39,794 nt of DNA from Candidatus Symbiothrix sp. (lineage in GTDB: Bacteria > Bacteroidota > Bacteroidia > Bacteroidales > Azobacteroidaceae). The notes below the pieces were generated by a model, which was given only the letters and a program-made list of their open reading frames with translations, ran no database searches and was not told the DNA's origin. The stretch is from the NCBI GenBank assembly GCA_031290435.1, contig JAITNQ010000143.1, forward strand, positions 1 through 39,794, written 5' to 3'. Of this stretch, positions 14,251-21,013 are shown piece by piece (within the stretch, counting starts at the first letter, position 1; every line of letters begins with the position of its first letter). Position numbers and translations under genes: made by a program.

Positions 14251-14281
14251 TTTGACGTTAAAGGAAATATTACTACTTTTG
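14251..14281 (+). promoter_or_regulatory. Promoter of the PdxA-like gene
   Basis: TTTG (14251-14254), a 19-base spacer and TACTTTTG (14274-14281) match both Bacteroidota promoter elements. Transcription would begin near 14288, leaving a leader of about 110 bases before the ATG at 14399. Confidence 0.7.
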
Positions 14282-14398: not shown

Positions 14399-15454
14399 AT
14401 GAGCGAAAAAATGATAAAAGTCGGGATTAGCCAAGGCGACATCAACGGCATATCTTATGAATTAATACTCAAGACTTTTGATGATATAAGGATGTATGAA
14501 TCTTGTATACCTGTTGTCTATGGCTCTTCGAAAGTCTTGGGATATCACCGGAAAGCATTAGACCTTCCGCCGATTAATATCAATAACATAGCACAGGCCA
14601 AAGATGCAGGCTTTAACCGTCTGAATGTAATCAACTGTGGAAATGAGGACATCGCTGTGGCGTTTTCACAAGCTACGCCCGAATCCGAAAAATTCGCCGA
14701 ATCAGCTTTCAGCAGAGCTGTGGACGATTTGAAAACCGGCAAGATTGATGTATTGGTAAGCGCTCCCTCCAATCAGGATGAAATTACCTATATTGAAGAA
14801 CAGTCCGGGGAAAAAGTCCTGAATATGCTGATAAGCGATAGTTTCAGAATTGCCTTGGCAACGAATAAAATACCGCTCGCCGAAGTGCCTTCAGGGATAA
14901 CGGTGGATTTGCTGAAAGTACAACTACAGATTCTTCGCGATACCTTGATTCATGATTTTATGATTACACTTCCCAGAATTGCTGTATTGTCGTTGAACCC
15001 GGGTGCGAGTGTCAGCGAACATCAATTCGGCAAAGAAGAAAATGAAATCATTATCCCGGCTATAAAAGAAGCAAACAATGCAGGTGTCATTTGTTTTGGC
15101 CCTTATTCTTCCGATAGTTTTTTCGCAACAGACAATTATCAGAAATTCGATGCGATTCTCGCCATGTATTATGATCAAGGCTTGACGCCTTTTCGTTCAC
15201 TTTCCGTGGGAAGGGGCGTTTGCTATGCGGCTAACCTGCCGTTTGTCAGAACAACTCCGGATCAAGGCCCCTGTTATGAAAGGGCAGGGAAAAATGAGAG
15301 TACGGAAAGTTTGTTCCGTGAAGCGATATTTTTGGCGATAGATATATTTAACGCACGGATTCTTGACAAGGAAATATATGCTAACCCCTTGAAAAAACAG
15401 TATTTTGAAAGAGGTTCGGATAATGAAAAATTAGATTTGACAAAAGAAGAATAA
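14399..15454 (+). CDS. PdxA-like protein lacking the metal-binding histidines
   Basis: This 351-aa protein is homologous along its length to 4-hydroxythreonine-4-phosphate dehydrogenase (PdxA): VGISQGDINGISYELILK at the start, PRIAVLSLNP and FGKEENEIIIPAIKEA in the middle, and LAMYYDQGLTPF and LPFVRTTPDQGP near the end. The three histidines that bind the catalytic metal in E. coli PdxA are all changed: TTH to TNK (K157), LNPH to LNPG (G202), and YHDQ to YYDQ (Y258). The GHTE segment expected near residue 130 is shortened, and DHGT reads DQGP. The reading frame is intact, with its own promoter, so it is not a decayed pseudogene. It is probably not an active PdxA. The role is unknown. Confidence 0.8.
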   Translation: MSEKMIKVGISQGDINGISYELILKTFDDIRMYESCIPVVYGSSKVLGYHRKALDLPPININNIAQAKDAGFNRLNVINCGNEDIAVAFSQATPESEKFAESAFSRAVDDLKTGKIDVLVSAPSNQDEITYIEEQSGEKVLNMLISDSFRIALATNKIPLAEVPSGITVDLLKVQLQILRDTLIHDFMITLPRIAVLSLNPGASVSEHQFGKEENEIIIPAIKEANNAGVICFGPYSSDSFFATDNYQKFDAILAMYYDQGLTPFRSLSVGRGVCYAANLPFVRTTPDQGPCYERAGKNESTESLFREAIFLAIDIFNARILDKEIYANPLKKQYFERGSDNEKLDLTKEE

Positions 15455-15530: not shown

Positions 15531-17150
15531 ATGAATTATGCGATAATAGCGGCAGGAGTGGGATCCCGTTTGGTTGAGGAAGGCATTGCCTTTCCGAAGC
15601 CTTTGGTTGAACTCAATGGCGTACCCCTAATTGACAGGCTGATTGCTGTTTTTTCAAAAAACAATGCAGTCTCGGTTTCGGTAATAGTGAATGAAGAGAT
15701 GAAAGAAGTCAGGCAGCATATTGAACAGCTAAAAGCCGACTTCCCCATTCATTTAGTGGTTCGTTCTACACCCAGTTCCATGCATAGTTTTTTTGAATTG
15801 AGTCCTTATCTAAAAGGGGGGAAATTTTGCCTGACAACGGTTGACACCGTATTTAATGAGGATGAATTCACCGAATTTATCCGAAAATTCGAAACCGATG
15901 AGGAAAATGACGGGATAATGGCAGTTACCGATTATATCGACGATGAAAAACCGCTCTATGTTTCCGTCAACGAAAATGATATGTCGATAAATGATTTTCT
16001 TGATAAGCCGGATGGCCGGGAAAAATATATTTCCGGAGGAATTTATTGTCTTACACCGGCTGCGATTCATATTTTGAACAACTGTTTAGAAACCGGCATG
16101 TTGCGGATGCGGAATTTTCAACGCCAATTGGTTCGGGAAGGATTCAAATTGAAAGCTTATCCTTTTCAAAAAATTATTGATATAGACCATGCCTCGGATA
16201 TCGTCAAAGCTGAAAAATGGTTGCAAAACGGCGCTATTTCACACAATGGGAAAGTTTCGCACAACGGCTCATGCTTGGTAGAGAAAGCATCCCTCCCGAT
16301 CGAACTGAAAATTGCCGGTGTTCGCAGGGGAAATAAATATTCGCCCAACCACATAGGAAATGATGCCGCCATCTTTAACCTGACTGTCGAACAACTGAAA
16401 AAAATGACTTGCAAAGTGCGGGAATACTCCGAACAGGAATTTCAGGAGCAGGAGATTGATGCGGATATTATCTTCAATATGGCAAGAGATACTGCGACTA
16501 TCCAAAAACTTCAGTTGATGGAAAATCAAGGAAAAAAAATTATCAATTCCGGATACGGTATAGAAAACTGTACCCGGGCAAAAATGACGAATATACTTAT
16601 TGCCAACGAAATACCTCATCCAAGAAGCCTGATTGTATCGACTTATGATAGTTTGCCGCCTGAAGCCAGCGAATTAGGCGCCTATTGCTGGGTGAAGCGA
16701 GGTGATTTTCATGCCATTCATTATGAGGATGTTACATATGCAAGGAATGGTAAAGAAACGGAAGGTTTGCTGAATGAATACGCTTTACGTGGAATTCCCA
16801 ATGCTGTCCTGAATGAACATTTAGAAGGCGACCTGATAAAATTCTATGGGGTAGAAAATACCGGTTTCTTCTATTGGTTTTATCCTAATGATTTGAATCA
16901 TAGTAAATTTGGATTAGAAGCCATCAATGGGAAAGCCAAAGGAATACCTTTCGATGAGGGAAAACTCAGAAATATATGCAGCAGAGCCGCCCGTGTTTTA
17001 AATATTTACATATACGGCGGAGATTGCGTAGTAGACAAAACGGGAATCATCCGCATCATTGATTTTAACGACTGGCCGAGTTTCGCTCCCTGTAGAATGC
17101 AGGCGGCGCCTCATATAGCACAATGTATTTATGAATTTGCAACAAAATAA
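15531..17150 (+). CDS. Nucleotidyltransferase/ATP-grasp fusion protein
   Basis: This 539-aa protein has two parts. Residues 1-235 form a sugar-phosphate nucleotidyltransferase domain: AIIAAGVGSRLVEEGIAFPK holds the G-x-G-x-R loop and the FPKPL lysine, VDTVF the metal-site aspartate region, and ISGGIYCLTP a typical later strand. Residues of about 300-539 look like an ATP-grasp domain: CWVKRGDFHAIHYEDV, LNEHLEGDLIKFYGVEN, and GGDCVVDKTGIIRIIDFNDWP, where acidic/Asn residues sit at the usual Mg positions. In this context the first domain could make CDP-inositol from inositol phosphate. The ATP-grasp part could be a kinase or a ligase; both are inference. It overlaps the next gene by 20 bases. 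Confidence 0.7.
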   Translation: MNYAIIAAGVGSRLVEEGIAFPKPLVELNGVPLIDRLIAVFSKNNAVSVSVIVNEEMKEVRQHIEQLKADFPIHLVVRSTPSSMHSFFELSPYLKGGKFCLTTVDTVFNEDEFTEFIRKFETDEENDGIMAVTDYIDDEKPLYVSVNENDMSINDFLDKPDGREKYISGGIYCLTPAAIHILNNCLETGMLRMRNFQRQLVREGFKLKAYPFQKIIDIDHASDIVKAEKWLQNGAISHNGKVSHNGSCLVEKASLPIELKIAGVRRGNKYSPNHIGNDAAIFNLTVEQLKKMTCKVREYSEQEFQEQEIDADIIFNMARDTATIQKLQLMENQGKKIINSGYGIENCTRAKMTNILIANEIPHPRSLIVSTYDSLPPEASELGAYCWVKRGDFHAIHYEDVTYARNGKETEGLLNEYALRGIPNAVLNEHLEGDLIKFYGVENTGFFYWFYPNDLNHSKFGLEAINGKAKGIPFDEGKLRNICSRAARVLNIYIYGGDCVVDKTGIIRIIDFNDWPSFAPCRMQAAPHIAQCIYEFATK

Positions 17151-18039
17151 CCCGACCCTTGAGTCAAGTTTAAAGTCAGTAGATACCGAAGAATTGATAG
17201 ATTTGTATTTCTACCGACCTATCGGTTACCGTTGGGCCTTGTTTTTCAATAAATTGGGTGTAACACCCAATCAGATTACCATTGCTTCTATTTTTATCGG
17301 GATGGCAGCAGGTGTATGTTTCTATTATACAGAATTTTGGATAAATCTCTCAGGCATATTCCTGTTGATATGGGCTAATTCTTTCGATAGCGCCGATGGG
17401 CAATTAGCCCGGATGACCGGTCAAAAATCGGAATTGGGGCGCATACTTGATGGGGCCTGCGGCGATTTCTGGTTTGGCGCGATTTATATAGCCCTTATTT
17501 GTCGCATGTGGTCGCAATGGGGTTTCTGGATGCTGCCCTTGGCTTTGATAGCCGGGTATTTTCACAGCAAACAGGCGGCCATGGCCGATTATTACCGGAA
17601 TGTACACCTCCTTTTTCTAAAAGGGAAGAAAGGTAGTGAATTGGATAATTCGTACGCATTAACGGAAAAATACCGGTCTTATCAATGGAAAGAAAAACCG
17701 CTTCAGAAGTTTTTCGACCGGATGTATCTTTTTTATACTGCCGGACAGGAGTTATGGACAAAAAATCTACAACGGATGCTGTCTGTCATCAATGAAAAAT
17801 ACAAGGGGAATGCGCCGGAATGGTTCTGTTTGGCATACAGGAAAAAGAGTTTTCCATTGTTGAAGTATACCAACATGCTCTCGTTTAACCTGCGGTCTAT
17901 TGTGCTGTTCGGAAGTGTACTCTCCGGATTTCCATGGGTTTATTTTGTTTTCGAACTGACGGTTTTAAACTTGATGCTGGTTTATATGCTTGTGAAGTAT
18001 GAACGAATTTGTTCCGATTTTGTTGAGAAAATTAAATAA
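17131..18039 (+). CDS. CDP-alcohol phosphotransferase family membrane protein
   Basis: This 302-aa protein has the family signature: DSADGQLAR, eight residues, then GRILD. That is D-x2-D-G-x2-A-R-x8-G-x3-D, but the final Asp follows after four residues (DGACGD) instead of the usual three. Hydrophobic segments around GVTPNQITIASIFIGMAAGV, FGAIYIALICRMW, FWMLPLALIAGYF and the C-terminal FELTVLNLMLVYMLV indicate an integral membrane enzyme. Family members transfer a phospho-alcohol between CMP and a lipid or alcohol. With myo-inositol-phosphate synthase three genes away, the likely product is an inositol phospholipid. The start is 20 bases inside the previous gene. Confidence 0.82.
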   Translation: MNLQQNNPTLESSLKSVDTEELIDLYFYRPIGYRWALFFNKLGVTPNQITIASIFIGMAAGVCFYYTEFWINLSGIFLLIWANSFDSADGQLARMTGQKSELGRILDGACGDFWFGAIYIALICRMWSQWGFWMLPLALIAGYFHSKQAAMADYYRNVHLLFLKGKKGSELDNSYALTEKYRSYQWKEKPLQKFFDRMYLFYTAGQELWTKNLQRMLSVINEKYKGNAPEWFCLAYRKKSFPLLKYTNMLSFNLRSIVLFGSVLSGFPWVYFVFELTVLNLMLVYMLVKYERICSDFVEKIK

Positions 18040-18054
18040 AATAAGCTAAATTTG
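18022..18054 (+). promoter_or_regulatory. Internal promoter before the HAD gene
   Basis: GTTG (18022-18025), 21 bases and TAAATTTG (18047-18054) resemble the Bacteroidota promoter and lie about 24 bases upstream of the HAD gene ATG, overlapping the end of the previous gene. The -33 element is imperfect. Confidence 0.45.
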
Positions 18055-18077
18055 CTCGCTGATTTGAAATTGAAACG

Positions 18078-18800
18078 ATGCTATACAGATATAAAATTAA
18101 AGGTATAATTTTTGATTACGGTGCAACCATAGATACCAATGGGATGCATTGGGCGGAAGTGTTATGGGATGCATACGTCAAAAACGGCGTACCGGTAGAT
18201 AAGTCTCAGTTCAGAGAGGCATACGTATATGCTGAGCGTTACCTGGCGCTTCATCCGGTCATCCGCCCATGGTTTACTTTTAAAGATGTTCTGCTGTCGA
18301 AAACGGAAATACAGTTAAAATGGCTTGTTGAACAATTTTTTTTGCCAAAAGATACAGATTCTTTGGCATATTCGCTTGCTATTTCAAATCAATGTTATAA
18401 CTTTGCCACCGTTGTGCTTGAAAAAGCAAGGCCTGTTTTAAAAAAACTGGCTTCACTTTATCCTCTGGCATTGGTTTCCAATTTTTACGGGAATATAGAG
18501 ACCGTTCTGAAGGATTTTGACCTAAGTGTTTATTTTACAGATATAATCGAATCCGCAGCGGTCGGGATTCGTAAACCGGATCCTGCAATATTTGCCTTGG
18601 GTGCGAAAGTTTTGAAATTGAATCCGGAGGAAATAGTCGTCATCGGCGACTCTTATAAGAAAGATATTCTTCCGGCAGCGAGTATAGGTTGCCAGACAAT
18701 CTGGCTTCGGGGAGTCGGCTGGGAGTCGGATAACTCTCCGGGCGAAAGTGCGAGTGCGGTGATAGATGATTTCGGAACACTGTGGGAGATTTTTGCTTAG
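18078..18800 (+). CDS. HAD-superfamily hydrolase-like protein
   Basis: This 240-aa protein has the HAD core: motif I FDYGATID (D13), motif II in LVSNFYGN, motif III in GIRKPDPAIF, and motif IV VVIGDSYKKDI. In motif I the second Asp of the phosphatase DxDx(T/V) is glycine (D13-Y-G15), so the usual general acid/base is missing. A helical cap lies between residues of about 20 and 110. It stands between the CDP-alcohol phosphotransferase and MIPS genes, suggesting a role on inositol phosphates or phosphatidylinositol phosphate, but the motif I change makes ordinary phosphatase activity uncertain. The 37-base gap before it holds a possible own promoter. Confidence 0.8.
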   Translation: MLYRYKIKGIIFDYGATIDTNGMHWAEVLWDAYVKNGVPVDKSQFREAYVYAERYLALHPVIRPWFTFKDVLLSKTEIQLKWLVEQFFLPKDTDSLAYSLAISNQCYNFATVVLEKARPVLKKLASLYPLALVSNFYGNIETVLKDFDLSVYFTDIIESAAVGIRKPDPAIFALGAKVLKLNPEEIVVIGDSYKKDILPAASIGCQTIWLRGVGWESDNSPGESASAVIDDFGTLWEIFA

Positions 18801-18883
18801 TATACTATAAGGAGTGAATTAAAAAAACGACTGATGTTGTTTTTCAGCCGCTAAAATATAAGTAATATATAAATAAATTGTTT

Positions 18884-20182
18884 ATGGAAAAAGTACAAGT
18901 GAAGGAAGCTAAAGGTAAACTTGGCGTCCTTGTTATTGGCGTTGGTGGCGCTGTCGCTACTACATTTATAGCCGGAACAATGATTTCCCGGAAGGGTGCA
19001 GGTGTGCCGGTTGGTTCTATATCTCAATTAGCTACGATCCGTTTGGGGAAAAGAGAGGAAAATCGTTTCCCTAAAATAAAGGACGTTGTGCCTTTGGCGG
19101 ATCTTAACGATATCGTTTTCGGAGGATGGGACATTTTTGAAGATGACGCTTATGCTGCGGCGCGTCATGCGGAAGTTTTAACTGTCGAGGATTTGGACAA
19201 AGTGAAAGACGAATTGCAGGTAATCAAACCGATGAAGGCCGTCTTCGACCAGGATTTTGTAAAAAGACTGCACGGAACTTGGGTAAAAGAAGCGCCCACT
19301 AAATGGGATTTGAAAGAAGCGGTGCGTAAAGATATTCGCGATTTCAAAGTCAATAACCGGCTTGATAGAGTAGTTTGTATCTGGTGTGGAAGTACGGAAG
19401 TCTTTACTAAAATCAGCGATGTACATAAAACGCTTCCGGCTTTGCAACAAGCCTTGCAAGAAAACAATCCGGAAATAGCGCCATCTATGATTTATGCCTA
19501 TGCAGCTTTGGAAGAAGGCGTTCCTTATATCAATGGCGCCCCGAATCTGACGGTGGATATGCCTGCTATTTGGGATTTTGCAGCACAGCAACAAGTTCCT
19601 ATCTGCGGAAAAGACTTTAAAACAGGGCAAACCATGATGAAGACGGTTATCTCTCCCATGTTGAAAACCCGTATGCTTGGTTTGAGCGGCTGGTTCTCTA
19701 CCAATATTTTGGGTAACCGCGATGGAGAAGTTTTAGACGATCCCGGATCGTTCAAGACAAAGGAAGAATCCAAACTTTCGGTTATCGACAATATTTTGCA
19801 GCCGGATCTTTATCCGCAGCTTTATGGCAATATCTTCCATAAAGTGCGCATCAATTATTACCCGCCGCGCAAAGACAATAAGGAAGGCTGGGACAATATT
19901 GATATCTTCGGTTGGTTGGGTTATCCAATGCAGTTGAAACTAGACTTTCTTTGCCGGGACTCCATTCTGGCAGCTCCGCTTTGCTTGGATTTGGTTTTGT
20001 TCACTGATTTGTCTAAACGCGCCGGTTTCAGTGGCATCCAATCCTGGTTGTCTTTCTATTTCAAGAGTCCTATGCACGATGATGAACATATTGCGGAACA
20101 CGATTTGTTTATCCAGTACATTAAACTGAAAAATACCTTGCGTCAGATAATTGGAGAAGAAACCATTGATTTCATTGATTGA
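18884..20182 (+). CDS. myo-Inositol-1-phosphate synthase
   Basis: This 432-aa NAD-dependent enzyme converts glucose 6-phosphate to inositol phosphate. The Rossmann loop is VLVIGVGGAVATTFIAG. The family signatures follow as NGAPNLTVDMPAIWDFA and the stretch CGKDFKTGQTMMKTVI, GNRDGEVLDDPGSFKTKEESK and VRINYYPPRKDNK, which supply the active-site lysines. I use the ATG at 18884 (MEKVQV); the track's 18878 start is a TTG two codons earlier. Bacteroidota inositol-lipid clusters carry a MIPS gene together with a CDP-alcohol phosphotransferase, as here. The leader of about 80 bases has a weak hairpin (cgactga/tcagccg) but no clear promoter. Confidence 0.93.
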   Translation: MEKVQVKEAKGKLGVLVIGVGGAVATTFIAGTMISRKGAGVPVGSISQLATIRLGKREENRFPKIKDVVPLADLNDIVFGGWDIFEDDAYAAARHAEVLTVEDLDKVKDELQVIKPMKAVFDQDFVKRLHGTWVKEAPTKWDLKEAVRKDIRDFKVNNRLDRVVCIWCGSTEVFTKISDVHKTLPALQQALQENNPEIAPSMIYAYAALEEGVPYINGAPNLTVDMPAIWDFAAQQQVPICGKDFKTGQTMMKTVISPMLKTRMLGLSGWFSTNILGNRDGEVLDDPGSFKTKEESKLSVIDNILQPDLYPQLYGNIFHKVRINYYPPRKDNKEGWDNIDIFGWLGYPMQLKLDFLCRDSILAAPLCLDLVLFTDLSKRAGFSGIQSWLSFYFKSPMHDDEHIAEHDLFIQYIKLKNTLRQIIGEETIDFID

Positions 20183-20185
20183 AAA

Positions 20186-21013
20186 GTGAAGGAAAAATTA
20201 ATAGATTTGGAGGTGTTTCAGAACGCCTCCTCTATTTTTAAAAAGCCTTATGGCCCGTTTTTGGCTAAGTGTATCACGAAAATCGCCGCTTTTGACAAGG
20301 TAAACCGGGTGTATGATTCCGGTAAATATAAGACCGGAACCGCTATTGAAGATGCCATGATTGATGGTCTGGGCATCACGAAAATAGTTCATAATATAGA
20401 CGTACTCAGGCAATTCGAAGGAAAACCTTTCATCACGGTATCCAATCACCCTTATGGACATATAGACGGAATCATGTTGATTGGTGAAGTGGCCAAGATC
20501 AGGCCGGACTTTAAGGTAATGGTGAATTGGATGTTGGGTTTGATTGATGTTATGGCCGATCATTTCGTAGGAGTCAATCCGTATCGTTCGGATACTTCGA
20601 AGAAGTCGAGCCTTTCCGGTGTGAAAGAATGTTTAGCGCACTTGCAATCGAATCATCCCTTGGGATTTTTTCCGGCAGGAGCCGTTTCCAAGAATATAGG
20701 CGGTAACAAAATCAAGGATAGAGAATGGCAGGATGGCGTGATTAAACTAATTCAGAAAGCCAATGTGCCGGTAATTCCCGTCTATATATCAGGTCAAAAT
20801 TCTTGGTTTTTCAATTTTTTGGACAAGATAGACTGGCGCATCCGAACCATCCGTTTGTGTCATGAATTGGACACAAAAAGAGGAAAAACAATAAATTTGA
20901 TATTTGGAGATCCTATTTTCCCGCAAGAACAACAAAAAATGCAAAATGTAAAGTTGTTTTCACAGTTTTTGCAGAATAAAACGTATGAATTAGCTATTAA
21001 ATCGAATCAATAA
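20186..21013 (+). CDS. PlsC-like lysophospholipid acyltransferase
   Basis: This 275-aa protein belongs to the glycerolipid acyltransferase superfamily. The histidine motif is in TVSNHPYGHIDGIMLIG, written H-x5-D rather than the classic H-x4-D, as in several Bacteroidota members. The second motif is VGVNPYRSD and the third FFPAGAVSKN, followed by VPVIPVYISG. It probably acylates a lipid acceptor at the inner membrane face. The GTG at 20186 is the only start that keeps it next to MIPS (3-base gap), but a later start is possible. It is co-transcribed with MIPS and, through a TAATG overlap, with the AraC-family gene. Confidence 0.8.
   Translation: MKEKLIDLEVFQNASSIFKKPYGPFLAKCITKIAAFDKVNRVYDSGKYKTGTAIEDAMIDGLGITKIVHNIDVLRQFEGKPFITVSNHPYGHIDGIMLIGEVAKIRPDFKVMVNWMLGLIDVMADHFVGVNPYRSDTSKKSSLSGVKECLAHLQSNHPLGFFPAGAVSKNIGGNKIKDREWQDGVIKLIQKANVPVIPVYISGQNSWFFNFLDKIDWRIRTIRLCHELDTKRGKTINLIFGDPIFPQEQQKMQNVKLFSQFLQNKTYELAIKSNQ

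Follow-up and report, generated by a model that had tools for sequence, protein, structure and literature searches.

Can a PdxA protein be kept by a bacterium after the residues that make it an enzyme are gone? The window, a 39,794-nucleotide stretch of DNA from a Candidatus Symbiothrix genome whose genus appears to be termite-gut and Azobacteroides-like, carries on its forward strand (14399 to 15454) a 351-aa ORF that raises this question. Profile searches revealed a match to PF04166 with 242 bits (curated cut-off 27) over profile positions 2 to 286 of 286. With TIGR00557, the NCBIfam PdxA equivalog, the ORF reached 219.5 bits; this is below the cut-off of 290.35, so the protein failed as a PdxA equivalog. 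An earlier note on this DNA had read the ORF as a PdxA homologue that lost all three metal-binding histidines and in which the GHTE segment is shortened. Alignment with Escherichia coli PdxA gave the same picture: H166 is replaced by K157 (ATNK; 14867 to 14869), H211 by G202 (LNPG; 15002 to 15004), and H266 by Y258 (YYDQ; 15170 to 15172). A deletion of 11 residues, with its junction at 14786 to 14791, removed the segment corresponding to E. coli residues 128 to 138 (approximately), including F-x-GHTE and thus the substrate loop with H136 and T137. K123, K274, and N283 were also lost, with R266 at the position of K274 and C275 at that of N283. Since the metal ligands, the H136-T137 loop, and these three residues are all replaced or missing, the observation was correct, as were the coordinates and the reading of the ORF.

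In total, 8 of the 11 active-site residues are gone, and D239, D259, and R284 (E. coli D247, D267, and R292) are left. These three, together with the fold-level PF04166 match, are what speaks for a rebuilt site in a still functional 4-hydroxythreonine-4-phosphate dehydrogenase. The protein contains histidines only at positions 50, 185, and 208, and none of them is conserved as a replacement; substitute metal ligands, which the earlier note had named as a possible objection, were therefore rejected. Taken with the absence of a PdxJ that could use the product (see below), this makes a working dehydrogenase extremely improbable. C232 is invariant in the genus (1.00) and rare in canonical PdxA (0.14). 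An AlphaFold2 model of the protein, built from 4 sequences only, had a pLDDT of 31.

The genome assembly comprises 3.23 Mb and is 87% complete, and within it we found a single PdxA match. A search for a second, intact pdxA, as suggested in the earlier note, was negative in this 87% complete genome, and an intact backup copy was rejected as an explanation. In a relative that was assembled separately, the locus is 94.6% identical and shows the same synteny, which confirmed the intact frame and excluded an artifact or misassembly. The dN/dS ratio between the window gene and its counterpart in genus member G020 was approximately 0.09, similar to six neighboring genes (0.03 to 0.15). For other genus pairs it was 0.09 to 0.22, and for a pair without detected myo-inositol-1-phosphate synthase (MIPS) it was 0.086. 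Furthermore, open PdxA frames are kept in more than 45 species. That the degenerate PdxA is under purifying selection is well supported by these substitution patterns. Loss of catalytic residues combined with purifying selection is the mark of a pseudoenzyme, and at the sequence level the window gene displays both.

Upstream of pdxA, a Bacteroidota-type promoter match (TTTG-N19-TAnnTTTG) is located at 14251 to 14281 on the forward strand. Its −7 box lies 125 bp 5' of the ATG and is accompanied by a matching −33 element. In 25 of the 32 genus members, a −7 box was detected 15 to 50 bp 5' of the ATG, while 1.6 would be expected in AT-rich sequence. In its Bacteroidota form, the separate promoter proposed earlier is supported and conserved across the genus.

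We then considered whether the protein could still serve pyridoxal 5'-phosphate (PLP) synthesis. Of the 37 genus genomes, 32 carried a degenerate orthologue, in single copy in each and with the site lost in every one; the other five gave no match. PdxJ was detected in none of the 37 genomes, and PdxB in none of the 10 members tested. PdxS was found in most members, including the window genome, and PdxA is therefore unnecessary for PLP there; with no PdxJ in the genus, the DXP-dependent route offers it no role either. These data, together with the signs of purifying selection, support well the earlier suggestion of a pseudoenzyme rather than an enzyme of pyridoxal synthesis. The rlmN-pdxA synteny was preserved in many members. 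Four of them also carry a second, intact PdxA that is approximately 30% identical to the degenerate one. These copies were not accepted as backups, as they belong to a separate PdxA2-like lineage. In G020, the intact gene adjoins genes for an alcohol dehydrogenase and a four-carbon acid sugar kinase-like protein (the latter read by eye), and because of these neighbors it is probably a catabolic PdxA2. Two reduced endosymbiont genomes, G003 (locus L041) and G024 (L042), have very divergent PdxA-like open frames; the inositol cluster discussed below was lost in G003 and kept in G024 between identical flanking genes. Considering these two copies and the five genomes without a match, the constraint may be weak in that part of the genus.

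To place the genus in its order, we surveyed 295 Bacteroidales genomes that were at least 90% complete, with the 87% complete window genome included as the center. PdxJ was missing in 33 of the 295, and PdxA was kept in 31 of these 33. PdxB, used as a control for pathway loss, was found in 1 of 31 PdxJ-less genomes vs 15 of 20 genomes with PdxJ. Low-scoring PdxA proteins (E > 1e-90) occurred in 16 of the 33 PdxJ-less genomes and additionally in G317, where PdxJ is only a subthreshold remnant, and in G297, which has PdxJ alongside a degenerate PdxA. G297 (L093, L107) was the only genome combining a full PdxJ match with a site-dead PdxA, and its congener G233 has no PdxJ; a recent reacquisition of pdxJ or a binning mix is possibly the cause.

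When we scored 11 active-site positions in the sequences of 81 PdxA proteins, the site was intact (11/11) in 21 of the 22 proteins from genomes with PdxJ. Proteins from PdxJ-less genomes were mostly degraded. Eight of them scored 11/11, all in assemblies of at most 95% completeness, so the absence of PdxJ may be a gap in these cases. In G135, G219, G287, and G232, substrate residues were lost and the metal histidines were kept. On the PdxA gene tree, loss of the metal site corresponded to at least nine changes. The clearest separate origins were the genus of the window, G260 beside the canonical G038, and G233/G297 beside the canonical G040, the latter two on well-supported separate branches. 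The tree also placed G039/G150 within the genus clade on a branch of 1.65, a position that we distrust as long-branch attraction. A phylogenetically paired sign test comprised four supported pairs, a number at which significance is unreachable. Some of the degenerate lineages have PdxS, and in others neither PdxS nor PdxJ was detected, so the retained function does not consist in regulating a single de novo route. Intact pdxA has been reported as essential in Porphyromonas gingivalis (PMC3547785), but this does not discriminate between the readings, because the species has PdxJ (PMC12119571).

Is the gene then a relic, either an unneeded enzyme that is slowly decaying or a leader ORF whose sole use is to allow the downstream operon to be transcribed or translated? 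Such a history would fit the decay of the catalytic residues following PdxJ loss, the promoter in front of pdxA, and the very divergent copies in G003, G024, and G027. We nevertheless consider it quite unlikely: PdxB and PdxJ did vanish from these same genomes, whereas pdxA stayed as an open frame in many gene contexts, and the dN/dS values reported above were low even in the pair without detected MIPS. The conservation of a C-terminal tail at the amino-acid level, described next, also argues against it.

We compared conservation over 12 degenerate representatives at residues that are invariant in canonical PdxA. These residues split into two groups. Catalytic ones were kept in at most one-third of the representatives and the others in nearly all. 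The well-kept group consisted of fold residues and of residues missing from E. coli, e.g., N16, S43, K45, D186, and A195. In an N-terminal stretch (residues 14 to 52; 14438 to 14554, forward strand), D14, N16, E21, G42, S43, K45, and K52 were kept in independently degenerate PdxA proteins. In a small comparison of polar sites, retention was 0.77 for the 7 Bacteroidales-specific ones and 0.37 for the 21 universal ones (P = 0.028, uncorrected); the same comparison over all residue types gave no significant difference (P = 0.32).

Within the genus family, conservation is highest in a C-terminal tail that is absent in E. coli PdxA; in the window protein it spans residues 326 to 349 (15374 to 15445, forward strand) and reads IYANPLKKQYFERGSDNEKLDLTK. 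Its near-invariant genus form, NPLKKQYFERGSDNEKLDLT, shows a per-site conservation of 0.89 with codons varying synonymously, and it is retained even in G027, whose copy has 272 aa, while the frames of G003 and G024 are without it. No second occurrence was found in other proteins of the window genome. The tail is missing from most other degenerate lineages and so cannot alone be the ancestral function. Outside the genus, G140 (L111) has a strongly degenerate PdxA (90.6 bits) with a similar tail, RGRDDYKLDLTKDEE, and an intact PdxA2-type copy elsewhere.

Downstream of pdxA, the window contains a cluster of the inositol-lipid type, which is context and not part of the pseudoenzyme. It begins with an NTP transferase gene (PF00483; 15531 to 17150, forward strand), followed on the same strand by genes for a CDP-alcohol phosphatidyltransferase, a HAD hydrolase, MIPS, and an acyltransferase (17131 to 21013). 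This neighborhood suggests another explanation, namely, that PdxA became a neofunctionalized enzyme or a helper dedicated to the cluster. Indeed, in 18 of 32 genus loci, some of them rearranged, the NTP transferase gene comes immediately 3' of pdxA in the same orientation; of the cluster genes, pdxA adjoins only MIPS in G031 and only the acyltransferase in G010. However, the sister genus G278, which has PdxJ and a canonical PdxA, shows the order rlmN-pdxA-NTP-CDP-HAD-MIPS-plsC, so the linkage predates the degeneration; the cluster noted earlier is thus real and its position ancestral. Moreover, occurrence of the gene was not tied to the MIPS cluster: it was retained in 11 members of the genus that gave no MIPS match (several of these assemblies are incomplete) and also in other families, where most degenerate PdxA genes, G260 excepted, have no such neighbors. 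We conclude that the link to the cluster is older than the degeneration and is not required for retention. The earlier note had left open a new reaction beside a pseudoenzyme; this is the weaker half of its proposal, since active-site residues differ among independently degenerated lineages and no new ligand or catalytic residue set was fixed. Altogether, a role dedicated to the inositol-lipid cluster appears unlikely. In several genus members (L034, L047, L053, L054, and L055), pdxA is separated from the remaining cluster genes by an inserted block of five or six genes, which includes a second, oppositely oriented acyltransferase homologue.

The reading that we prefer, with a probability of roughly 65%, is that the window gene encodes a pseudoenzyme that purifying selection maintains because Bacteroidales PdxA has a second function, independent of the metal site and of PLP synthesis. 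Site loss, retention, selection, and co-occurrence with the loss of PdxJ and PdxB were observed. According to the mechanism that we propose, an ancestral PdxA would have done both jobs. The lineage would then have taken up PdxS, which provides the ribose-5-phosphate route to PLP, and lost pdxB and pdxJ, whereupon the catalytic site decayed while the fold was preserved along with the residues that serve the second job. We infer both this order of events and the absence of any catalysis. The second job would be structural: as the kept residues and the tail suggest, the protein probably docks a putative partner. The docking surface may comprise the Bacteroidales-specific D14, N16, E21, G42-S43-x-K45, and K52 near the N terminus together with D186-F187, and in the genus of the window docking may also involve the tail.

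The recurrent site loss upon disappearance of pdxJ suggests, as far as genome comparison can tell, that PdxA has a second, unrecognized job in these bacteria. The wider proposal, to which we give an even chance, is that PdxA is bifunctional throughout the Bacteroidales, combining the PLP step with a conserved noncatalytic role, that the site decays and the protein stays upon pdxJ loss, and that the window gene represents one of several natural alleles in which the two functions became separated independently. In the limited set of literature that we searched, we found no description of the retention of a site-dead PdxA. The gene is in routine use as a marker of vitamin B6 synthesis; it persists here in genomes without the route, so annotating B6 synthesis from pdxA is misleading. 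By its recurrence, the pattern points toward an overlooked function for a textbook enzyme within a major gut order, and naturally occurring site-dead proteins offer a clean genetic test of this function.

Among known systems, the closest is the PdxA enzyme itself (E. coli structures 1PS6, 1PS7, and 1PTM; TIGR00557), with which the window protein shares the family, the orthologous position (next to rlmN in many genus members), the kept fold residues, and presumably the fold. Unlike the enzyme, it has no metal ligands or substrate loop, lacks most active-site residues, and falls below the equivalog cut-off, and its genus is without the pathway partners PdxJ and, in the 10 members tested, PdxB. 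The PdxA2 (D-threonate 4-phosphate dehydrogenase) type is a PF04166 paralogue, and its copies in the four genus members differ from the degenerate PdxA by their intact site and their identity of only approximately 30%. The alternative Bacteroidetes inositol-lipid cluster (PMC9246714) comprises the NTP transferase, phosphatidyltransferase, HAD hydrolase, and MIPS that also stand beside the window gene; the main text of that paper does not mention PdxA, and PdxA of the window type also occurs in genomes that gave no MIPS match. The plant protein PDX1.2, a pseudoenzyme of the PdxS type (PMC6829848), belongs to an unrelated protein family and regulates B6 synthesis, whereas the degenerate PdxA persists also where neither PdxS nor PdxJ was detected. 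Nevertheless, both are relatives of a vitamin B6 enzyme that are maintained by selection, PDX1.2 as a noncatalytic protein and the degenerate PdxA probably likewise.
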